Of a stretch of DNA of 35,591 nt, positions 4,903 through 28,909 are shown piece after piece. Below the pieces are notes generated by a model. The model was not told where the DNA came from, ran no database searches, and saw only the letters and a program-made list of their open reading frames with translations. This DNA is from a bacterium (lineage in GTDB: Bacteria; Vulcanimicrobiota; Vulcanimicrobiia; Eremiobacterales; Eremiobacteraceae), in assembly GCA_902812405.1 (NCBI GenBank), contig CADDZI010000024.1:1-35591 (forward strand), given 5' to 3'. The translations under genes and the position numbers were made by a program. Position 1 is the stretch's first letter. Each line of letters begins with the position of its first letter.

Positions 4903-6747
4903 GTGAAGACGGCCGTCGTCGTCGGATTCGACTACCACGTCCGGGCTTTATGTCAACGGATGAACCGGCATGCCGGGGGTTGGCGTTTTCTCGCCTACCC
5001 CACCAGCCGAGCAGGCTTGGTGCGTGCCCTCGCTCGTTTGGCCTGGGCCGATGTTATCATCCGAGTCGGCGGTCCGCTGCCACACAGCAGCCTCATGGCC
5101 CTGGCGCGTCTGCGAGGCATCCCCGTTGTCGTCATCTGGGCCGGCACCGACGTGTTGACCCTTTTGCGTAATCCGTCCCTCTTGAAAGAATCGCAAAAGT
5201 GTGAGGTCGTCCACCTTGCCGTGGCACCCTGGCTGGTCGACGAATTGAGTGCCGCGGGAATCCGGGCCCAGTACCTGCCGATCATAGGTGTCGAAGACAC
5301 AGCTGCCCCACCAAAGAGCCCGTGCCAGCCGTACATCCTGACCTATCTTCCCGAACCGCGCCGCGAGTTTTACGGCCGCGATTTTGTGTATGAGGTCGCG
5401 CGCGGGCTCCCCGAGATGCGATTTCTTGCCGTTGGGGCGGGCGAACAGGATGCGGGGGCGCCTCCGAACGTCCGGTACCTCGGGTGGCGGGGTAGTCTCA
5501 ACGACCTGTACGATCAATCGTTTGCCATCCTTCGTGTTCCGGAGCATGACGGCATGTCGCTGGTCGTCCTGGAAGCCTTAGCCCGGGGTAAATTCGTGAT
5601 CTGGAAGTATCCGTTACCGGGCGTTAACAGGGTCTCCAGCCCTGAGGAAGCACGTGCCTGTTTGCGTGCATTGTGGGACAAACAACAGCGCGAGCCGGAA
5701 CGCCACAATATCGAGGGCATGACATTCATTCAAAAGCATTACGAGGCAGGCCGCGTTGCGCGTGGCTTGGGAGAGTTCCTCGATGCCACACTTCAGGAGT
5801 ATGCATCGCGCCGCCAGAAACGAGCCGTTGCCATCGTCGGCCACGACCTCTTCTGCGCGGAAGTCGCTCGCCTTACGAACGACTCGCCGATGCCGTGGCA
5901 AGCAAACGTATTGCACTTTGAGACAAAGATTGAGCACCTGTCGTCTCTGCTCCAGCTTGTGCGTGCCGACGTCCTGTACTCGATCGGCCAGCCCATGTTG
6001 GGCAAAACCGTCAGCGCAGTAACACGACTGCTCGGCAAGCCGCGGGTCGTGCATTGGGTGGGGTCGGATATTCGGTTATTAGAGTCACGGCCGCAATTGC
6101 GTGGTGATCTCAACGGTGCTCGCATGGCCCATATCGCCGAGATCGAATGGGAAGTGGAAGAATTGCGTTCGCTAGGCATTGAGGCCGCAATCGCGCCGCT
6201 GCCGCCCCGTCTGTCAAACGGCCCTGTTCTGCCCGCCCTGCCAGAGATCTTCACAATTCTCGCCTACCTACCGCCACAGCGTACTGCGTTCTACGGGGGG
6301 CGCGAGGTCGAGCTGCTGATCCGTGATTTCTTAGGCAAACCGGTGAGGTTCATCATCGTTGGCGGCGGTATGGTGGAAGCGCCTCCAGGGGCGTCGGTCG
6401 AGAATCTCGGGTGGACGCACACCTTAGGGGAGGTGTATGCGCGGTCGACGGTGCTGGTACGATTTACAGGCAACGACGGCTTGGCGCTCATGGTTTTGGA
6501 GGCTCTCGCGGCGGGTCGTCAGGTAGTATGGACAAAGCGTTTTCCTTTCGTCCATACCGTTGCGAGCTACAGCGATGTCAGACGAACACTCGCGGAGTTG
6601 TTTGAACAACACACGGCCGGCCTTTTGACTCTCCAGTGGGAAGCCTCGCAGTATGTCCGCAACGGCTATGCCCCAACCAGGTGCATTGAAGGGTTGGCAC
6701 GGCATTGGGATTCGGTCATCGCGGGGGAGAAGAGTGGTGATGCCTGA
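4903..6747 (+). CDS. Tandem-duplicated GT4-like glycosyltransferase (two fused halves)
   Basis: A 614-residue protein made of two homologous halves, about residues 1-300 and 307-614. Each half starts with a similar strand (MKTAVVVGFD and KRAVAIVGHD). Each then has a W-x-G-[TS]-D element (IWAGTDVLTLL and HWVGSDIRLLE), and a donor-domain run: YLPEPRREFYG / YLPPQRTAFYG, RYLGWRGSLNDLY / ENLGWTHTLGEVY, and D-G-[ML]-[SA]-L-x-VLEALA. The last block is the nucleotide-sugar-binding region of GT4 enzymes, with the glutamate of VLEALA in both halves. Neither half is a full-length GT4 (about 370 residues); each looks like a compact version. No signal peptide or membrane span is seen, so it is probably cytosolic. 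It is divergent from metF and convergent with the small unknown gene at 6804. The fusion could make a two-step transferase or a pseudo-dimer with one active half. Confidence 0.75.
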   Translation: MKTAVVVGFDYHVRALCQRMNRHAGGWRFLAYPTSRAGLVRALARLAWADVIIRVGGPLPHSSLMALARLRGIPVVVIWAGTDVLTLLRNPSLLKESQKCEVVHLAVAPWLVDELSAAGIRAQYLPIIGVEDTAAPPKSPCQPYILTYLPEPRREFYGRDFVYEVARGLPEMRFLAVGAGEQDAGAPPNVRYLGWRGSLNDLYDQSFAILRVPEHDGMSLVVLEALARGKFVIWKYPLPGVNRVSSPEEARACLRALWDKQQREPERHNIEGMTFIQKHYEAGRVARGLGEFLDATLQEYASRRQKRAVAIVGHDLFCAEVARLTNDSPMPWQANVLHFETKIEHLSSLLQLVRADVLYSIGQPMLGKTVSAVTRLLGKPRVVHWVGSDIRLLESRPQLRGDLNGARMAHIAEIEWEVEELRSLGIEAAIAPLPPRLSNGPVLPALPEIFTILAYLPPQRTAFYGGREVELLIRDFLGKPVRFIIVGGGMVEAPPGASVENLGWTHTLGEVYARSTVLVRFTGNDGLALMVLEALAAGRQVVWTKRFPFVHTVASYSDVRRTLAELFEQHTAGLLTLQWEASQYVRNGYAPTRCIEGLARHWDSVIAGEKSGDA

Positions 6748-6803: not shown

Positions 6804-7256
6804 TCAGGTTCGCCGGTGTTGCAAAAGCTTATGGGTGTCATCTTGCAGGGCATTCTCTATGCCGGCAGCGAGATCGCACACCGTGGTCTGCAGACGGTCC
6901 AGCCTATCGAGGAGGAACGCTAAAAGCGGCATGTCCGCCAGGTATTCCTCGGCCCACGCCGCCATCTCCGGGGGTTGTTCGCGCAAGAGTTGATAGAGGC
7001 GATCGATGTGGTTGGCCACGTCCGCGTCGACACACCGACGCCACTCTGCGCGGCGATACATCCTATCGCACGGTGCCTCCATCTCGAGATCCGGCGGCCA
7101 CGACCAGTCCCAGTCGGGGAGAAGAACGGCAGGTTCGTCGGCGGTGTAGTACTGCAAGGCCCAGCGCAGACGTTCGCAGTTGCGGGCGTACGCAGCGATA
7201 TTGGAACGCACCTCGCGCCAGAGCTGGCGTCGTGCCCGGCGAGCCTCACCGCTCAT
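6804..7256 (-). CDS. Conserved unknown protein, copy A, divergent from a sulfotransferase
   Basis: A 150-residue soluble, helix-rich protein that I do not recognise. It is homologous along its whole length to the protein at 10682-11137. Shared features, in order: [RD]E[VI]R[SK]N near residues 14-19, a W-x-x-QY element near 32-36, the aromatic motif WDWxWP at 49-54, a W near 72, [DE]RLY-x-LL near 85-91, PL[LA]-x-FL near 110-114, and [CN]-x-L-x-x-GI near 127-134. It starts at 7256; a GGA sits 10 bases upstream. It is divergent from a sulfotransferase gene, with 58 bases between the start codons, and the same arrangement recurs in the second copy. No signal peptide or membrane segment is seen. 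A partner or regulator of the sulfotransferase is a reasonable inference from the duplicated pairing only. Confidence 0.7.
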   Translation of the reverse strand: MSGEARRARRQLWREVRSNIAAYARNCERLRWALQYYTADEPAVLLPDWDWSWPPDLEMEAPCDRMYRRAEWRRCVDADVANHIDRLYQLLREQPPEMAAWAEEYLADMPLLAFLLDRLDRLQTTVCDLAAGIENALQDDTHKLLQHRRT

Positions 7257-7314
7257 GGATCAGTGTTCCTTTACAGGCCACCTCCTCGTTCCGAGACATC
7301 GGAGGACTACCGTT

Positions 7315-8343
7315 GTGTGGTCGGTGACCGCCCGCCTGCGCCGGCACTGCCCGGACGCCGTGAAGGTGTGGCTGCGCAACCAAGTGCTCGATTGCGGCGG
7401 CTACCAGCGTTCGGTCTTTCTGTCGGGGACCGGGCGCGGCGGTACGACGTGGATTTCCGAGCTGCTCAATTACGACAACCGTTATCGAGATATCTTTGAG
7501 CCCTTCAACGCGCACTTTGTGCGTTCATCCCGCCTATTCGTCTATTCGCTCTACCTGCGACCCGATGGCGAGTATCCCGAGTACCGCCGGCAAGCGCGGG
7601 CTATCCTGGAGGGGCGCATCGGCAACGGGTGGACAAATCGAGCGAACCGGCGCTTCGTGGCCTTTCGGCGTTTGATCAAAGAGGTACGGGCCAATCTCTG
7701 GGTCAAGTGGTTACAAGTCCAGTTTCCCCGTCTGAAGATCATCCTGCTCCTGCGCCACCCGTGTGCCGTGGCAGATTCCCGGCTGCGCCTGGAGTGGCCG
7801 ACGCGGTTGTCGATGTTCTTGGTGCAACGCGAGCTCATGACCGACTACCTGGCACCCTACCGCGACGCTATGCTGCGCCTGTCGACGGATTTTGAGAAGC
7901 ACATCATGGCTTGCTGCATCCATTACTATGTTCCGTTGCAGCAATTTAAAAACGGAGAGGTCTACTGTGCATTCTATGAAGATTTCCTGACCGCTCCGGA
8001 GCGCGAAATCGCAAGCCTCTTCTCATTTCTGGGAGAACGTTACGACGACCGTATCTTCTCCTTGTTGGACCGGCCATCCGGGACAACAAGCCAGGAGAGT
8101 GAGGCGCGAGCCCACCACGGTGCGGCTCTCGCCGGTTCCTGGCAAAAGCGAATCTCTCCGGATATGCGCAAGCGGGCCGTGGAGATCATGAGTTGGTTTG
8201 GGTTGGACACCATCTACAACGAGGATCCCCTGCCGTCGCCGGCCGCAATCGCTCATCTGGCAAACTCGCGAGATCCACGATACGGTCCTCACACCCGCCA
8301 CGTGGATGCCGGCAGAGATACGTTGAGTTTGAGATCCGAGTAG
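7315..8343 (+). CDS. Sulfotransferase, copy A (PAPS-dependent)
   Basis: A 342-residue P-loop sulfotransferase expected to move a sulfuryl group from PAPS to a hydroxyl on a glycan or lipid. The 5'-phosphosulfate-binding loop is GTGRGGTTW (38-46), and the 3'-phosphate-binding element is LLRHPCAVADSRL near 145-157 with the arginine and serine that contact PAP. The C-terminal QKRIS segment is also shared with copy B. The frame is open back to 7180, including an ATG at 7255 that overlaps the neighbour's start codon. I chose GTG at 7315 because GGAGG lies nine bases upstream (7301-7305) and the N-terminus then matches copy B in length. Its last 55 bases overlap the end of the convergent LolA-like gene. 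No membrane span is seen. The substrate is probably the local surface glycan. Confidence 0.85.
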   Translation: MWSVTARLRRHCPDAVKVWLRNQVLDCGGYQRSVFLSGTGRGGTTWISELLNYDNRYRDIFEPFNAHFVRSSRLFVYSLYLRPDGEYPEYRRQARAILEGRIGNGWTNRANRRFVAFRRLIKEVRANLWVKWLQVQFPRLKIILLLRHPCAVADSRLRLEWPTRLSMFLVQRELMTDYLAPYRDAMLRLSTDFEKHIMACCIHYYVPLQQFKNGEVYCAFYEDFLTAPEREIASLFSFLGERYDDRIFSLLDRPSGTTSQESEARAHHGAALAGSWQKRISPDMRKRAVEIMSWFGLDTIYNEDPLPSPAAIAHLANSRDPRYGPHTRHVDAGRDTLSLRSE

Positions 8344-8945
8344 GTTACCTGCTTCAGGATGCTGCCGTCGGCTGCATACTCGGTGCTCTGCACCGGCAAT
8401 CCGTTGGGGCCTAGGAGCAGCGTCCAGCGAGCGACGTCGTCGTCGGGCGGTGCCATGTGCAGCGGCGTGCTCACCAGGATGTTCTCGCCGACCGGCGTGA
8501 CGGTCATGCTCTTGGGGTCTAAGGACTGCAGCTGGTTAAGGAGTGCACCGAAGTTGGCCTGTGCGATCGTCGTGCCGCGCAAACTAACCGCGAGGCGGTT
8601 ATGGATGTCCAGATTCAAGGTGATAAACGAGAGCAAGCCGCCCTGGTGACCCACCACGCGGGTACCCCCGGTCCAGACGGCAACGCTGCCGCGACCGTCG
8701 CCGGCGACGATCTCAGCCCGCGTATCGAACGGCTTTTGGAAGAAGAGGTGATAGGTACGGTCTTGCGTCCGCGAGCCCTTCACCTCGTGAACGGTTGCCG
8801 TCACGGTGTACGACTGCACGCCCGCCCAGGCGTCGGCAAAACGCTGTACGGCTTGCGCGACCGGGTCGGCGGGAGCGCCGGCAGCTCTTGCCGTCGCGGC
8901 GCACGCAAGGAAGACGATAAGGGGCAGCGCCCTGTCTACCTTCAT
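8289..8945 (-). CDS. Exported LolA-like/outer-membrane lipoprotein-sorting-like protein
   Basis: A 218-residue protein with an N-terminal signal peptide (hydrophobic core about residues 6-20, ending in ATARAAGA). After it comes a sequence with the pattern of LolA/DUF-type half-barrel proteins: AVQRFADAWAGVQSYTVTATV, then alternating beta strands such as RTYHLFFQKPFDTRAEIV and SVAVWTGGTRVVGH, ending in TYSDLKLNVSLP. In related proteins the half-barrel binds lipid or lipoprotein; specific function is unknown here. Its ATG overlaps the end of the UspA-like gene by four bases, so it is the last gene of a three-gene operon. Its 3' end overlaps sulfotransferase copy A on the other strand. The LolA assignment rests on fold-like pattern only. 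Confidence 0.6.
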   Translation of the reverse strand: MKVDRALPLIVFLACAATARAAGAPADPVAQAVQRFADAWAGVQSYTVTATVHEVKGSRTQDRTYHLFFQKPFDTRAEIVAGDGRGSVAVWTGGTRVVGHQGGLLSFITLNLDIHNRLAVSLRGTTIAQANFGALLNQLQSLDPKSMTVTPVGENILVSTPLHMAPPDDDVARWTLLLGPNGLPVQSTEYAADGSILKQVTYSDLKLNVSLPASTWRV

Positions 8946-9559
8946 GACCGTTTGAGGGCGTTGGGAAGTGCGCCCAAACTCAACATGCTCTCCTCCCCGG
9001 TGGCGCTCGAGACGCCGACGATGGCGTCGGTCTGCGTGTGAGCCAAAACGTACTCAATGGCCTGGCCCAGAGGTGCTCCGGCGTAGCGGTGCTCACGGTA
9101 GGTCCCCATGACGATCAGCGATGCCCCCTCCTCTTTCGCGGCCTGGATGACCGCTGGACCGGTCTGACGGTCGCGAATAGTGCGACTTATGATCTCGACC
9201 CCAATTTTGCGGCCTATCTCCTCGGCTGCGGTCAGGACACCCAGAGCCTCCCGTTCTTCGTTGGGCAGCTCGGCATCGATCGGCAGCGTGTAGGGAACCT
9301 CGATGATATAGATGGCAACCAAACGTGCCTGGCGCCCCTTGGCCATCCGCGCCGCCAGTGCCACCAAAACTTCCGAGCGGATCTGGCGCGAGAAGACAAT
9401 GAGAATGACCCCGGTGATCTCCTGGGCCTGCTCCGTGGCATGCTCGGCGATCATCTCGGTGGGGCTGGTTGGTGCATGCAGCATACGGTAGAGCGTCGTG
9501 CCGATCGCTCCTACCAGCAGAATGGCCAAAACCGCGCCGACGGGGTCGGGGTGAGGCAC
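8942..9559 (-). CDS. Membrane-anchored universal stress protein (UspA-like)
   Basis: A 205-residue protein with one N-terminal membrane segment (about residues 7-25, AVLAILLVGAIGTTLY) and a C-terminal UspA-type domain from about residue 50. The domain shows strand VILIVFSRQIRSEVLVALAARMA, then ARLVAIYIIEVPYTLP, then VIQAAKEEGASLIVMGTYREH, ending with GAPLGQAIEYVLAHTQTDAIVG. The last block resembles the G-x2-G-x9-G nucleotide-binding pattern of ATP-binding Usp proteins, in a degenerate form. Start is GTG two bases after the stop of the 70-residue membrane protein gene; GGGG lies about eight bases before it. It overlaps the LolA-like gene by four bases. Membrane tethering of a Usp domain is unusual among well-studied Usp proteins. 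Role unknown; envelope stress sensing is speculative. Confidence 0.72.
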   Translation of the reverse strand: MPHPDPVGAVLAILLVGAIGTTLYRMLHAPTSPTEMIAEHATEQAQEITGVILIVFSRQIRSEVLVALAARMAKGRQARLVAIYIIEVPYTLPIDAELPNEEREALGVLTAAEEIGRKIGVEIISRTIRDRQTGPAVIQAAKEEGASLIVMGTYREHRYAGAPLGQAIEYVLAHTQTDAIVGVSSATGEESMLSLGALPNALKRS

Positions 9560-9561
9560 GT

Positions 9562-9774
9562 TTAGACCCCGCGCAGGCTGAGCAAGGCCTGCAAGTACAG
9601 CCAGCCGCGCCAGAAGCCGGCTACGGTCAAGAGGCCGGCCACGAGCACGGCGGGAAGAATTTGCAGCGAGATAGGTCCGGCAATCGAAAACAGCCGCAAT
9701 AGCGTAATGATGCCGAGGAGAGACATTCCGAACGAGCTCGCAGTCTTAAAGCGCAGGAGGAAGAGGCTGGGCAT
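9562..9774 (-). CDS. Small two-segment membrane protein
   Basis: A 70-residue protein with two hydrophobic stretches, about residues 14-35 (FGMSLLGIITLLRLFSIAG) and 38-55 (QILPAVLVAGLLTVAGFW), and a basic N-terminus (LLRFK). The frame is open far upstream, but that portion is the antisense of the GT2 gene, so I start at ATG 9774, just outside it. It is the first gene of a tight operon with the UspA-like and LolA-like genes (two-base gap to the next start). I do not recognise a family; it may serve the Usp-type protein at the membrane. Confidence 0.6.
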   Translation of the reverse strand: MPSLFLLRFKTASSFGMSLLGIITLLRLFSIAGPISLQILPAVLVAGLLTVAGFWRGWLYLQALLSLRGV

Positions 9775-9816
9775 CACGCCTTGGTTCTGGGCGGCTCTAC
9801 GCGGGTCCTCGGCTGC

Positions 9817-10725
9817 ATGACGGACCTTGGGGTAATGACGCGGACGGAGTGCCCGACGGTCTCGGTCATCATCCCGACCTTCCAGTGTGCACCCTATCTG
9901 CGGCAGTGCCTCGATAGCGTCCTCGGCCAGACATACCCCACGGATCGCATCGAGATCATCCTGGTAGACGATGGTTCCACGGATGAAACTCCGCAGGTGG
10001 CGGCAGCGTATACGGGACGCATCCAGTATCTGCGTCAGCCTAACCGGGGAGTCTCGGCGGCCCGCAATGCCGGCATTGCGGCGGCCGAAGGTCACTTGCT
10101 TGCTTTTCTGGATGCCGATGACTATTGGCTGCCTCGCCGCCTCGAACTGATGGTTCCCCGCCTCGCACGCGCGGAGAAGACTCTCGCAACGACCGACTTC
10201 TACGTCCAGGAAGGCGATCGGGTGCACGCACGCAGCTTCTTTTCGCAGCGGCCGCAGCATCGCGAGACGTTAACTGATCCCGCGAGGACGTACAGAAGCA
10301 TCTTGGAGGATAATTTTCTCCCCTACATGATGATGTTGCCGCGCCAGGTTATCGAGGAGGTCGGTAACTTCGACACAGGCCTGCGCTATGGTGAAGATTG
10401 GGACTTGTGGCTGCGCTGCTTGCGGGCGGGCTACCGTGTCGAGCTGGTCGACGAACCGTGTGCCGTGTACCGTCACTTGAGGCCGGGCGCCACGACCACC
10501 CAGGGCACATGGGCCAAGGCCAGGGATCGGGTGACGGTCTTGTCGCGTCACCGGCGCCATGTATCGCGGCGTCGCTGGGCGCTCGCGACCGGGATCGTGC
10601 ATCACCTCGCAGTGCGGGAGTTGGGTGCGCAACGCCGCTACCTCGCTGCTGCCATTCACCTCGGCGCACTGGCGCCCAACATCACGTACGTTCGGGAGTG
10701 GGTGAAGGCGAAGACGGGCATATGA
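9817..10725 (+). CDS. Glycosyltransferase family 2 (GT-A fold)
   Basis: A 302-residue inverting GT-A glycosyltransferase. It shows the family's first strand SVIIPTFQCAPYL, nucleotide-binding VDDGSTDETP, QPNRGVSAARNAGI, the metal-binding DADD motif in LAFLDADDYW, and the catalytic-base region YGEDWDLWLR. The C-terminal ~80 residues are Arg-rich with no clear membrane anchor. The frame opens at TTG 9781; ATG 9817 and ATG 9835 are alternatives. None has an ideal ribosome site (GGGG lies just before 9835), so the start is uncertain by up to 18 residues. It is divergent from the small membrane-protein operon, and its last 44 bases overlap the end of unknown gene copy B. Likely adds a sugar to the same surface glycan; donor unknown. 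Confidence 0.88.
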   Translation: MTDLGVMTRTECPTVSVIIPTFQCAPYLRQCLDSVLGQTYPTDRIEIILVDDGSTDETPQVAAAYTGRIQYLRQPNRGVSAARNAGIAAAEGHLLAFLDADDYWLPRRLELMVPRLARAEKTLATTDFYVQEGDRVHARSFFSQRPQHRETLTDPARTYRSILEDNFLPYMMMLPRQVIEEVGNFDTGLRYGEDWDLWLRCLRAGYRVELVDEPCAVYRHLRPGATTTQGTWAKARDRVTVLSRHRRHVSRRRWALATGIVHHLAVRELGAQRRYLAAAIHLGALAPNITYVREWVKAKTGI

Positions 10726-11137
10726 GTCGATCGAGCTCTGCGATAATACCTTCACCAAGATTGCAAATCTCTCGTTCGCGTTGAGCCAACTTGCCGGATA
10801 AGAATACCGCCAGAGGCAGGCGGCCATCCCACTCGTTCTCCCAGCGATCCAGACGCGGTGGGGTGTCCTTCAAAAGGGCGTACAATCTTTCGACGCGCTC
10901 GCGCAGAGCTGGTGTGACCGCATTCTGCCAGCCTGGCGAGCGAGAATTTTGCTCCTCGGTCGGGGCCAGCCGAACGCCGCGTGGCCAGTGCCAATCCCAC
11001 TCCTCAAGCACGACCAGGGAATCGCCGATGTACTGGATTAACCAGTGCAATTCGGCCATGTTGCGGCGATGGAGTGTGACGTTTTTCCTAATCTCATCGC
11101 GCAAGCGCATCAAGGAGGCCCTGCCTGGTCTTGGCAT
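10682..11137 (-). CDS. Conserved unknown protein, copy B, divergent from a sulfotransferase
   Basis: A 151-residue homologue of the protein at 6804-7256, sharing its full length (150 versus 151) and the order of motifs. These are DEIRKN near 14-19, W-x-x-QYI near 32-36, WDWHWP near 45-50, a W near 70, ERLYALLKDTPP near 84-95, PLAVFL near 108-113 and ICNLGEGI near 125-132. The frame is open upstream to 11332, but that region is antisense to sulfotransferase B. Start ATG 11137 aligns exactly with the start of copy A, while ATG 11110 would lose the first nine aligned residues. Only 32 bases separate its start from that of sulfotransferase B. The 3' end overlaps the GT2 gene by 44 bases. I recognise no known family. 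Confidence 0.7.
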   Translation of the reverse strand: MPRPGRASLMRLRDEIRKNVTLHRRNMAELHWLIQYIGDSLVVLEEWDWHWPRGVRLAPTEEQNSRSPGWQNAVTPALRERVERLYALLKDTPPRLDRWENEWDGRLPLAVFLSGKLAQREREICNLGEGIIAELDRLICPSSPSPTPERT

Positions 11138-11169
11138 AATTTGTGTTGCCTGTCTATTTAGTGGTGGGA

Positions 11170-12189
11170 ATGAATCTTCCGCTTGATCCTGTTGTTCATA
11201 TGCTCCGTCGCAGAGTTCCGGCTCCCATCCGCGAACTCTTTCAGTCTGCTCTTTTCGAATGCAATCATGATTACCGCAAAGCGGTGTTCTTGGCGGGAAC
11301 CGGTCGAGGCGGCACGACGTGGGTTTCGGCAATCCTCAACTACGATAATCGGTACCGCGACATGTTTGAGCCCTTTCACAGCCATTATGTCCGTTCGTCC
11401 GGCCGTTTTGTGTATACTCTCTATCTACGACCGGCAGACAACGACCCGTATTTTCTCAACCAGGCCAGGCGGATTCTCGAAGGACGTGTCCGCCACTGGT
11501 GGATAGATCAGGCGAACCGGCGCCGGATCGTGACGCACCGTCTGATCAAAGAAGTGCGAGCCAACCTGTGGCTGAAATGGCTGCATAGCCACTTCTCGGG
11601 CTTGCCTATCGTCCTCTTGCTGCGTCACCCCTGTGCGGTGGCTGATTCCCGGCTGCTGTTGGAATGGCCAACGCGACTTCAGATGTTCTTGAGCCAGCCA
11701 GACCTGGTTCAGGACCACCTCCAGCCGCTGCGCGATCGTTTATTGGCGCTGGAAACACCTTTTGAGCGGCACATCGCTGTCTGGTGCATTCAACACGCGG
11801 TGCCCTTGAGGCAGTTCCGGGCGGGTGACATCCATTTGGCGTTCTACGAGGGTTTCGTTGTGGAGCCTGAGTCGGAGATTCAGCGCCTTTTTGGGTTCCT
11901 CCGCGAGCCCTACTCGGATCGTATCCTGGAGACTCTGGAACGGCCGTCGTGGACAACCCGTCAGGGCAGTGCAGTGCGCAGTTCGCGGGGTCGCGCCTTG
12001 CTGGAATCGTGGCGCAAGAGAATCAATGCAAGCCAGCAAAAACGCGCGGTCGAGATCCTTGGATGGTTTGGGCTCTCGGGCGTTTATGGCCTCGATCCTC
12101 TGCCCGACCGCGCCGCGGCGGAAAGGCTGCTCGGTGGCCCGGGCGAAGCACTACAGGTGACGGCCGGTAGCACGCACCAAGCTCAATAG
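11170..12189 (+). CDS. Sulfotransferase, copy B (PAPS-dependent)
   Basis: A 339-residue paralogue of the protein at 7315-8343, more than half identical by eye across the core. The 5'-PSB loop is GTGRGGTTW (43-51). Next come NYDNRYRD-x-FEPF, the block RLIKEVRANLW-x-KWL, and the 3'-phosphate-binding LLRHPCAVADSRL followed by LEWPTRL-x-MFL, all shared with copy A. The conserved FEPF / RLIKEVRANLW blocks differ from Golgi-type and Nod-factor sulfotransferases, so this is a distinct bacterial subfamily. I start at ATG 11170, with GGTGGGA immediately upstream; an in-frame ATG at 11143 is possible but would leave almost no leader for the divergent partner. The end overlaps the convergent GT-C gene by 39 bases. 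Two diverged copies imply two acceptor sites or two glycans. Confidence 0.86.
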   Translation: MNLPLDPVVHMLRRRVPAPIRELFQSALFECNHDYRKAVFLAGTGRGGTTWVSAILNYDNRYRDMFEPFHSHYVRSSGRFVYTLYLRPADNDPYFLNQARRILEGRVRHWWIDQANRRRIVTHRLIKEVRANLWLKWLHSHFSGLPIVLLLRHPCAVADSRLLLEWPTRLQMFLSQPDLVQDHLQPLRDRLLALETPFERHIAVWCIQHAVPLRQFRAGDIHLAFYEGFVVEPESEIQRLFGFLREPYSDRILETLERPSWTTRQGSAVRSSRGRALLESWRKRINASQQKRAVEILGWFGLSGVYGLDPLPDRAAAERLLGGPGEALQVTAGSTHQAQ

Positions 12190-21950: not shown

Positions 21951-23744
21951 ATGGGGTATGTGTTTGCCCTCGTACTCGACGGCGACGAGTTGGCGTCCTG
22001 GCAAGCCGAGAGCGTGCGCCTGTTGGAAAGCGAGGGCTGGGCTCGCTTGGCGTCTATCATTGAGGTACGGTCTGCCCCACAAGGCGCAGGCGATGCGCGA
22101 AGCGTCGTGCACGGGGATTCGTCCTACGAGGCGTTCGTACGGCGTGTGGGCGTCGCAGAGTTGCTGCCCGTGAAAGCGCGGGATCTCTTTGCCGGCTGCC
22201 AGTGGCTCGATTGCGCAACTGGTGCTCCGGCCTGGCACGGCGAGGCGGCGGACGCATTGCACACTGCGGCGGGCGCGGGACCCGAAGGGGTTGAGGCGGC
22301 CCCGCCGCGCGGCGCAGCCGAGGCGGGCGGGGCGTGGGACTTCATCCTCGCGTTCACGAGGCGGCCCGAGGTGCCGGCCGAGATCGCCGCAGCAGCGCGC
22401 TACGGGATCTGGCAGTTCCTTTATGGCGACCCGGCGGCTTTTGAGGCTGCCGTGCCCGCCTTCTGGGAGGTCCTTGACGATCACGACGTCACGAGCGCCG
22501 CGCTCGTGCGCGTGCACCCGGGCGGGAACCTTGGTGTCGTTCTCAAACAGGCGCACCTGGCGACGCAGCGCACGTCGTTTGGCGACAACGCTGCCGTGTT
22601 GCTGCGGGAAATGCAGACCTGGCCGGCGCGAGTCTGCCGCGACCTTGCGGCCGGTGCGGCGGTATACCTCAATGCCGCCGCGCAGCCGCGGCCTCCACGC
22701 AGGTATGGGATGCCGGCTGCGCGCGACATCCGAACCCTGCGGGCGCGCGTGCGGGGGCGGACGTTTGCCCAGGTCTGGCGTCGGCGATTTCTCAAGCAGG
22801 ATTGGACGATTGCCCTTGCCGACCGCCCCCCGACCGACTTTGTTGACATCGATGCGCGCCCACAGGTGCGTGTGCTGGCGCCATACGACCGCAGGCGTTT
22901 CCTTGCCGATTGCTTCGTCGCCGGGCGTGACGGAAAAACTTTTGTCTTCTTTGAGGACTTCGACTACCGGCGCGGCCGCGGCGTCATTGGCGTGGCTCCG
23001 CTTGACGGGCGCGGACCCCTGCGTGCACGCATGGCGTTGGAGGAGCCTCATCACCTGTCGTATCCGCAGGTGTTTGAACACGGCGGCACGTTCTATTGTT
23101 TGCCCGAGTCGGTGTATGCGCGCGTGGTTCGCCTGTATCGCGCTGTGGAGTTTCCCTATCGGTGGGAGCCCGCAGCCACGCTCGTCGAGGATTTCGCGGC
23201 AGTTGATCCCACGCTGGTTTTCTACGACGGCCGGTGGTGGCTCTTTTGCACCAACCTCGATGAAGGCTACCATTCGCACGTGTACGTCTGGCACGCCGGC
23301 CATCTCTTCGGCCCGTGGCAACAGCACGCGGCAAACCCGGTCAAGGTGGATGTGCGCTCGGCGGGGCCGGCGGGACCGCTCTTCGTGCACCGGGGCGTGC
23401 TGTACCGGCCGGCGCAAGACTGCTCGCGCGTGTACGGCGGGTGCATTCGGCTCAACCGCATCGAGCGTCTTACCACACACGAGTTCAAAGAGGTGCCGGC
23501 GGGAACGATTCGGCCGCCGGGCGGCCCGTACTCGCAGGGTTTGCACACGATCGCGGCATGGGATGGGACCTGCGTCGTGGATGTGATGCGCTACGTCTTC
23601 AATCCGCAGGCGGCGCTGGGGGCGGCGCGGGGTTGGGCCGGCTTGCTGGCCCGAGGCGCGGGAGTTCCCGACGAGAGCCTGGCGGCGCTGAAGGCCAGGT
23701 TACGGGCTTGGCGAGGGTCTAAGGCCGGGAACGGCCGGCCGTAG
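21951..23744 (+). CDS. Formyltransferase-like / GINT1-like fusion protein
   Basis: A 597-residue protein in two parts. Residues ~1-245 resemble the formyltransferase fold: ALVLDGDELASWQ at the start, then YGIWQFLYGDP, AVPAFWEVL and TSAALVRVHPGGNLGVVLK. The Asn-His-Asp catalytic set of methionyl-tRNA formyltransferases is not visible, so this half may be inactive. From ~270 the sequence has the repeated blades of the GINT1 N-terminal-like domain of plant/bacterial glucosaminyl-transferase proteins: FVFFEDFDYRRGRGVIGV, HHLSYPQVFEHGGTFYCLPES, DPTLVFYDGRWWLFCTN, LYRPAQDCSRVYGGCIRLNRI. It probably builds or recognises a sugar-modified surface molecule. It starts seven bases after the FemAB-like gene. 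The joining of these two folds is known from bacterial databases in general terms, but substrate and reaction here are unknown. Confidence 0.7.
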   Translation: MGYVFALVLDGDELASWQAESVRLLESEGWARLASIIEVRSAPQGAGDARSVVHGDSSYEAFVRRVGVAELLPVKARDLFAGCQWLDCATGAPAWHGEAADALHTAAGAGPEGVEAAPPRGAAEAGGAWDFILAFTRRPEVPAEIAAAARYGIWQFLYGDPAAFEAAVPAFWEVLDDHDVTSAALVRVHPGGNLGVVLKQAHLATQRTSFGDNAAVLLREMQTWPARVCRDLAAGAAVYLNAAAQPRPPRRYGMPAARDIRTLRARVRGRTFAQVWRRRFLKQDWTIALADRPPTDFVDIDARPQVRVLAPYDRRRFLADCFVAGRDGKTFVFFEDFDYRRGRGVIGVAPLDGRGPLRARMALEEPHHLSYPQVFEHGGTFYCLPESVYARVVRLYRAVEFPYRWEPAATLVEDFAAVDPTLVFYDGRWWLFCTNLDEGYHSHVYVWHAGHLFGPWQQHAANPVKVDVRSAGPAGPLFVHRGVLYRPAQDCSRVYGGCIRLNRIERLTTHEFKEVPAGTIRPPGGPYSQGLHTIAAWDGTCVVDVMRYVFNPQAALGAARGWAGLLARGAGVPDESLAALKARLRAWRGSKAGNGRP

Positions 23745-27627: not shown

Positions 27628-28065
27628 TTGAAAGCACTTGGTACGCACATCATCGTCGAATTGTCCGACTGTAACCCGCGCATTCTCAGTGACGTTGACC
27701 AAGTAGCGAGCATTCTCGTCGCAGCGGCCAAGGCCGCACACGCAGAGGTTCTCCAAACCGCCTTTCACCGCTTTTCGCCCCAGGGCGTCAGCGGTGTCGT
27801 CGTCATTGCCGAATCCCACCTTTCCATTCACACCTGGCCGGAGTACGGGTACGCAGCCATGGACATTTACACGTGCGGCGAAAAAACCGAACCCTGGAAA
27901 GCCTGCCGCTTGGCGGCGGCCGAATTCCAGGCCAAGCAGATGCTGACCACGGAAGTGCGCCGCGGGATGCCGGATGAGTATGGCGTCTATAGCCACGTCG
28001 TCGGCAAGCGCTCCAGCGGAGCCGTTCCGGGTGCCAAAAACAGAAAACTCGCAGTGGTACGTTGA
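27628..28065 (+). CDS. speD: S-adenosylmethionine decarboxylase proenzyme
   Basis: A 145-residue bacterial class-1 SpeD, which self-cleaves to form a pyruvoyl cofactor and makes decarboxylated SAM for aminopropyl transfer. The cleavage site is E62-S63 in IAESHLSIHTWPEYGYA; H68 and C83 (YTCG) are the processing and proton-donor residues. The start is TTG 27628, with GAGGG eight bases upstream; it gives the family N-terminus ALGTHIIVEL. An ATG at 27624 is out of frame. A ~20-residue basic/Ser tail (GKRSSGAVPGAKNRK) is extra, arising from overlap with speE by 35 bases. Confidence 0.94.
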   Translation: MKALGTHIIVELSDCNPRILSDVDQVASILVAAAKAAHAEVLQTAFHRFSPQGVSGVVVIAESHLSIHTWPEYGYAAMDIYTCGEKTEPWKACRLAAAEFQAKQMLTTEVRRGMPDEYGVYSHVVGKRSSGAVPGAKNRKLAVVR

Positions 28066-28909
28066 GCAAGTCGGCCCGGGAGAAATCCACGGGCACGCCG
28101 TCCTCCGTACGCTGGCTGCGGGCCGCTCGCGCTTCCAAGAGTATGCCGTCGTCGAAACCCGGCTCTTCGGCAAGATGCTGGTGCTGGACGGCGACACGCA
28201 AAGCTCGGCACTCGATGAGCACATCTACCACGAGAGCCTGGTCTTTCCGGCCTGCGTTGCCGCCGGAGGTGCTCCGGAGCGCGCTCTGATCCTCGGCGGC
28301 GGGGAGGGGGCGACGCTGCGTGAGCTGTTGCGCTTGCCCAGCATCCGCCAGGTGACCATGGTGGACATTGACGGCGAGGTCGTCGACGTCTGCCGGCGTC
28401 ACCTGCCCGAGTGGAGCGCAGGGGCGTTCGATGATCCGAGGACCGACCTCATCATCGGCGATGCCCGGGAGTACGTGTTCTCGTCACACGAGCAGTTCGA
28501 CGTCATCCTGGGAGATCTGACGGAACCGCTCGAGGGATCTCCCGCCGAGGGTCTCCATTCGCCGGAGATGTATGCGGCGATCCGCGCACGTTTGAGCCGC
28601 CGGGGTGCGTACGCGCTCCAAGCCTCGACCTGCGGCCCGCACAACTACGGGCTACACGTTCGGATGATCCGCCGGCTGCGGGATGTGTTTTCTGTGGTCG
28701 CCCCGTACAGCGTGTACGTGCCGGCCTTTGATACCGAGTGGGGGTTTGCCGTATGCGGCGGGATCGTCGGCATGCAGTCCGAGGAGGCGGCGCGCGGTGC
28801 CCAGCAGCTGGCCGGTGCCTGCGGCGGACTGCGTTTCTACGACGGGGAGTCGCATCGCCGGCTCTTCAACCTGCCACGGTACTTGCGCGAGGCGTACGAA
28901 GTTCGCTGA
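28031..28909 (+). CDS. speE: Spermidine synthase (aminopropyltransferase)
   Basis: A 292-residue aminopropyltransferase that uses decarboxylated SAM from SpeD. Motifs are QSSALDEHIYHESL (putrescine/dcSAM side), LILGGGEGATLREL (nucleotide loop), VDIDGEVVDVC, IIGDAREYV and the catalytic-aspartate loop LGDLTEP. The last differs from the usual D-x-x-D-P at the second acidic position (E), a common variant in thermospermine/spermine-type enzymes, so the polyamine product is not certain. GTG 28031 follows GGAG at nine bases; ATG 27974 is the alternative and would lengthen the overlap with speD. It is the last gene of the operon; a palindromic repeat region follows. Confidence 0.92.
   Translation: MPKTENSQWYVEQVGPGEIHGHAVLRTLAAGRSRFQEYAVVETRLFGKMLVLDGDTQSSALDEHIYHESLVFPACVAAGGAPERALILGGGEGATLRELLRLPSIRQVTMVDIDGEVVDVCRRHLPEWSAGAFDDPRTDLIIGDAREYVFSSHEQFDVILGDLTEPLEGSPAEGLHSPEMYAAIRARLSRRGAYALQASTCGPHNYGLHVRMIRRLRDVFSVVAPYSVYVPAFDTEWGFAVCGGIVGMQSEEAARGAQQLAGACGGLRFYDGESHRRLFNLPRYLREAYEVR

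Follow-up and report, generated by a model that had tools for sequence, protein, structure and literature searches.

The stretch of DNA analyzed here (the window) is the 35,591-nt contig 24 of a bacterial genome of 2.32 Mb that is 97% complete. It contains two sulfotransferase (ST) genes, each of which lies back-to-back with a gene for a small protein (SP), raising the question of what the SP does and whether it acts on the ST next to it. A preliminary description of the sequence reported this arrangement as a duplicated pair, and we confirm that observation: two minus/plus pairs are present at 6804–8343 and 10682–12189 in the orientation described, the start-to-start distances are indeed 58 and 32 bases, and the WDWxWP, GTGRGGTTW, and RLIKEVRANLW motifs are all found. 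The relevant features are as follows.

4903–6747, plus strand: two-domain group 1 glycosyltransferase, convergent with SP1
6804–7256, minus strand: SP1, orphan protein with a WDWSWP motif; 150 aa, predicted to be soluble and modeled as all-helical
7257–7314, no strand: gap of 58 bases separating the divergent SP1 and ST1 start codons
7315–8343, plus strand: ST1, matching Sulfotransfer_1/3; 342 aa from GTG 7315, with P-loop SGTGRGGTTW and 3'-phosphate motif LLRHPCAVADSRL
9781–10725, plus strand: family 2 glycosyltransferase situated between the modules, with 44 bases at its 3' end shared with that of SP2
10682–11137, minus strand: SP2, orphan protein with a WDWHWP motif; 151 aa from ATG 11137
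11138–11169, no strand: gap of 32 bases separating the divergent SP2 and ST2 start codons
11170–12189, plus strand: ST2, sulfotransferase paralogous to ST1; 339 aa from ATG 11170

The sequence GGAGGA precedes GTG 7315 of ST1 and AAAGGA precedes the SP1 ATG; the ST1 start is uncertain, since its frame is open upstream as far as TTG 7180, which lies within SP1. SP1 and SP2 are the only SP copies in the source genome, and ST1 and ST2 account for both of its Sulfotransfer_3 matches.

As the preliminary description proposed, the two SPs are homologous, with 31% identity over 119 residues (E 1e-23). Because open frames are also present on the opposite strand of both SP regions, we performed a six-frame comparison of three SP regions, including that of the relative described below. 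Conservation is confined to the SP frame (E 3e-22, 3e-12, and 1e-10 for the three pairs); the other frames scored 0.017 or worse, so the SP open reading frames are real genes rather than shadows of frames on the opposite strand.

Searching 60 related genomes with a profile of SP1 and SP2 returned one clear relative, SP3 (E 9.5e-15), in a genome (G007) that belongs to the same family of Ca. Eremiobacterota (Vulcanimicrobiota in the NCBI taxonomy) but to a different genus. SP3 (locus L009, 8320–8802, plus strand) is also divergent from an ST (7334–8287, minus strand), and the gap between the two is 32 bases if SP3 starts at GTG 8320 and 77 bases if it starts at GTG 8365, of which the latter fits the lengths given by the other SP starts better. 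The three SPs share 26–33% identity, and WDWxWP, a PP pair, one C, and several W, R, and L positions are invariant in all three. SP1 and SP2 are mutual best matches, at 77 bits compared with 50 and 46 bits to SP3. Neither the 117 genomes of the class nor the 149 of the phylum yielded another SP when searched with a three-member profile. A scan of genome contigs with the two-sequence alignment also returned nothing, although this is a weak negative for other phyla because its exact patterns would miss SP3 as well. Consistent with the preliminary description, whose author knew of no described family for the small protein, neither Pfam, NCBIfam, PHROGs, nor PADLOC gave a significant match, the best score being to DUF5632 (E 0.19; 12.2 bits against a cut-off of 25). 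The SPs thus constitute a real, undescribed orphan family of very narrow distribution.

Several other assignments were considered and dropped. Weak SP matches in five genomes (G018, G048, G049, G099, and G103; E 0.004–0.08) are attributed to chance, as they are short and partial and lie inside long open reading frames or across a stop. An origin of the SPs on phages or plasmids was discarded, since no copy was found among phages, plasmids, and viral contigs. The SP3 and ST genes in G007 are flanked by two nucleotidyltransferase-like proteins (L009:8768–9730 and L009:5431–6441), of which one matches NTP_transf_2 and the other, which overlaps the SP gene at its 3' end, is without a Pfam match. 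A HEPN-type partner of the nucleotidyltransferase-like gene beside SP3 was rejected, because Rx4-6H, judged by eye, is not conserved across the SPs; this reading is also disfavored by the lack of a match to defense profiles and of a nucleotidyltransferase gene beside the window copies.

AlphaFold2 models built from alignments of only three sequences predict, with confidence, the same architecture for SP1 (pLDDT 84.4, pTM 0.78) and SP2 (pLDDT 82.7, pTM 0.78), in which long helices at the N and C termini flank, in order, a loop with WDWxWP that is modeled less certainly and a set of short helices. The SPs are therefore predicted to have a helical fold, and they have no transmembrane stretch (maximum 19-residue hydropathy of ~1.1). 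Foldseek comparison of the models with the PDB gave no significant match (best E 2.2 for SP1 and 1.1 for SP2), and neither did comparison with viral structures.

The enzymes on the other side of each pair are of a known type. ST1 and ST2 are 56% identical over 313 residues (E 1e-126), and both score above the curated cut-offs of the PAPS-dependent sulfotransferase families PF00685 (Sulfotransfer_1; 36.8 and 25.5 bits, respectively; cut-off 22) and PF13469 (Sulfotransfer_3; 34.7 and 30.3 bits; cut-off 27). With these families they share the 5'-phosphosulfate P-loop, present as GTGRGGTTW near both N termini, and the 3'-phosphate Arg...Ser motif, in which R, H, P, and S are nearly invariant in the family alignment. 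The P-loop, the Arg...Ser motif, and an FEP-type glutamate are nearly invariant across the ST family, and we take the FEP motif to resemble the EP motif of carbohydrate sulfotransferases. Solved structures are only remotely similar, and the CurM sulfotransferase, among the nearest, matches over short pieces only (E 4e-5). Compared with PF00685 and PF13469 at large, the ST1/ST2 subfamily occurs mainly in one family of Ca. Eremiobacterota.

ST1 and ST2 look like PAPS-dependent carbohydrate sulfotransferases. Their motifs, the glycosyltransferase and ABC-2 transporter genes that surround them in the window, the adjoining APS kinase and ATP sulfurylase genes in the source genome, and an ST array in a sister genus make PAPS-dependent glycan sulfation their likely chemistry. 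In that array (L060:5118–13162, on contig C52 of genome G012), four tandem STs are divergent from genes for ATP sulfurylase, APS kinase, and a 3',5'-nucleoside bisphosphate phosphatase-like protein, which would place PAPS supply and, probably, PAP recycling beside the STs.

How tight is the link between SP and ST? Related STs gave 55 matches in eight genomes, with 8–11 copies each in G002, G003, G009, G010, and G012, five in G007, one in G008, and two in the source genome. The preliminary description named repeated co-occurrence as support for its reading, and this holds in one direction only: all three known SPs lie adjacent to and divergent from an ST, in two genomes of two genera, so that the SP is not a protein encountered mostly away from STs, while 52 of the 55 STs lack an SP, including four of the five in G007. 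Profile, motif, and profile-profile searches detected no SP-like protein beside these other STs.

In a tree of 57 ST sequences, the SP-linked STs all fall into one clade of six (support 98/92), in which ST1 and ST2 are sisters (100/99). Together with the mutual best match of SP1 and SP2, this fits a duplication of both genes together. The clade is completed by a tandem ST of G007 that has decayed and by single STs of G009 and G012; these last two are divergent from a GINT1_N-domain protein instead of an SP. The SP-linked STs are set apart from the remaining STs at only four alignment positions.

We note further features of these loci. Apparent internal stops in ten STs are the terminal stop in nine cases. 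The exception is the ST downstream of the SP3-linked ST (L009:6441–7322), which has lost the P-loop, contains an in-frame TGA near its N terminus, and appears to be a decayed copy or pseudoenzyme. The GINT1_N domain (PF24793, glucosamine inositolphosphorylceramide transferase 1 N-terminal) is found in proteins that recur near STs of this family, at 21951–23744 in the window and at L009:10880–12052, L058:3619–5193, and L065:6797–8264. Elsewhere in the window (27628–28909), the open reading frame for adenosylmethionine decarboxylase shares 92 bases with that for spermidine synthase, which is in a different frame, and the decarboxylase frame extends ~30 residues beyond its family model.

Comparative sequence data suggest that the SP is probably a dedicated helper or regulator of the adjoining ST. 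The proposal in the preliminary description that the two products work together, with the SP as an adaptor, chaperone, substrate-presenting partner, or inhibitor, is plausible and partly supported. The specific form that we favor, tentatively and as a possibility falling somewhat short of an even chance, is that PAPS-dependent carbohydrate sulfotransferases of one subclade have the SP as their dedicated accessory protein, small, soluble, and helical, which would contact them directly. In this model, a surface glycan or glycolipid built by the surrounding glycosyltransferases would receive sulfate from PAPS through ST1 and ST2, and each SP would act post-translationally on its cognate ST by direct contact, stabilizing it, gating it, or presenting the acceptor. 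The gene pair would have been duplicated as a unit in the lineage of the source genome, after which the copies diverged and kept their partners. The glycan substrate, the physical contact between SP and ST, and its effect are all what we infer. The main argument for the accessory protein is that the pairing has been kept across two genera and through a duplication despite divergence of the SPs to ~30% identity. Against it stand the three instances from two genomes, the lack of an SP beside most STs of the family, implying that STs of this type generally need none, and the presence of only four distinguishing ST positions, which offer no obvious interface.

Local autoregulators are classically encoded by a small gene placed back-to-back with its target, and the SP could potentially regulate the divergent ST gene at the transcriptional or post-transcriptional level. 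While the divergent layout and the predicted soluble, all-helical nature of the SPs fit this idea, an operator and two promoters would have very little room in the start-codon gaps of 58 and 32 bases; a scan for sigma-70-like promoters found no site in either gap and is uninformative. DNA binding is not favored because SP1 and SP3 are acidic (pI 5.25 and 4.5, respectively; SP2, 7.85), and the SPs match neither a helix-turn-helix nor any other DNA-binding profile, nor a DNA-binding protein in the structural search of the PDB. We consider such a regulator unlikely, though a live alternative. Close divergent pairs can also persist via a shared promoter region alone, in which case SP and ST would belong to the same glycan pathway without acting on each other, and the pair would be kept because separation would damage both 5' ends. 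The distance of 32–58 bases between start codons agrees with this, as does the GINT1_N-domain protein beside sister STs in two other genomes, which implies that STs of this clade usually have a divergent neighbor, not necessarily an SP. However, among 149 genomes of the phylum the SP is nowhere found without an ST, and the other neighbors of the STs vary between genomes. We regard a shared promoter region as the sole tie between the genes as rather unlikely.

It is more improbable still that the SP is a lineage-specific, fast-evolving gene unrelated to sulfation, e.g., a recent arrival hitchhiking with the ST. Its presence in only 2 of the 149 genomes and its faster divergence than the ST (31% versus 56% identity) would be expected of such a gene, but an open reading frame of ~145–160 codons has stayed in frame in both genera and through a duplication; its WDWxWP, PP, W, and C positions do not vary, and the predicted folds agree.

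The favored accessory protein has partial parallels in known systems. The synechan (xss) cluster of Synechocystis directs synthesis of a sulfated exopolysaccharide, and its sulfotransferases XssA and XssE are encoded among glycosyltransferase and export genes, as are the STs of the window; the accessible part of that report describes no SP-like partner and attributes regulation to XssS/XssR/XssQ, of which XssQ is a DNA-binding STAND protein (PMC8205485). In contrast to the xss cluster, the window has ABC-2 transporter genes rather than a demonstrated Wzx/Wzy set. In Myxococcus xanthus, the small cytosolic regulator EpsW activates the polysaccharide enzyme EpsZ by direct contact (PMC12802240). 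The likeness lies solely in the proposed mode, i.e., a small soluble protein that tunes a glycan-biosynthesis enzyme post-translationally; in that pair, a single-domain response regulator (EpsW) acts on a phosphoglycosyl transferase (EpsZ) (PMC12802240). Unlike EpsW, the SPs are predicted to be all-helical and match no response-regulator family.

Sulfated glycans seem unstudied in Ca. Eremiobacterota, as among the open papers searched just one names both the phylum and sulfotransferases, each a single time. We also know of no partner protein described as controlling a bacterial carbohydrate sulfotransferase. That the SP is a partner that controls or directs carbohydrate sulfation by direct binding, with a fold unmatched in the PDB, is a doubtful prospect but a consequential one: to our knowledge, such a dedicated protein partner would be the first for a bacterial carbohydrate sulfotransferase, and the SP would then provide a small, testable model for how bacterial glycan sulfation is directed.
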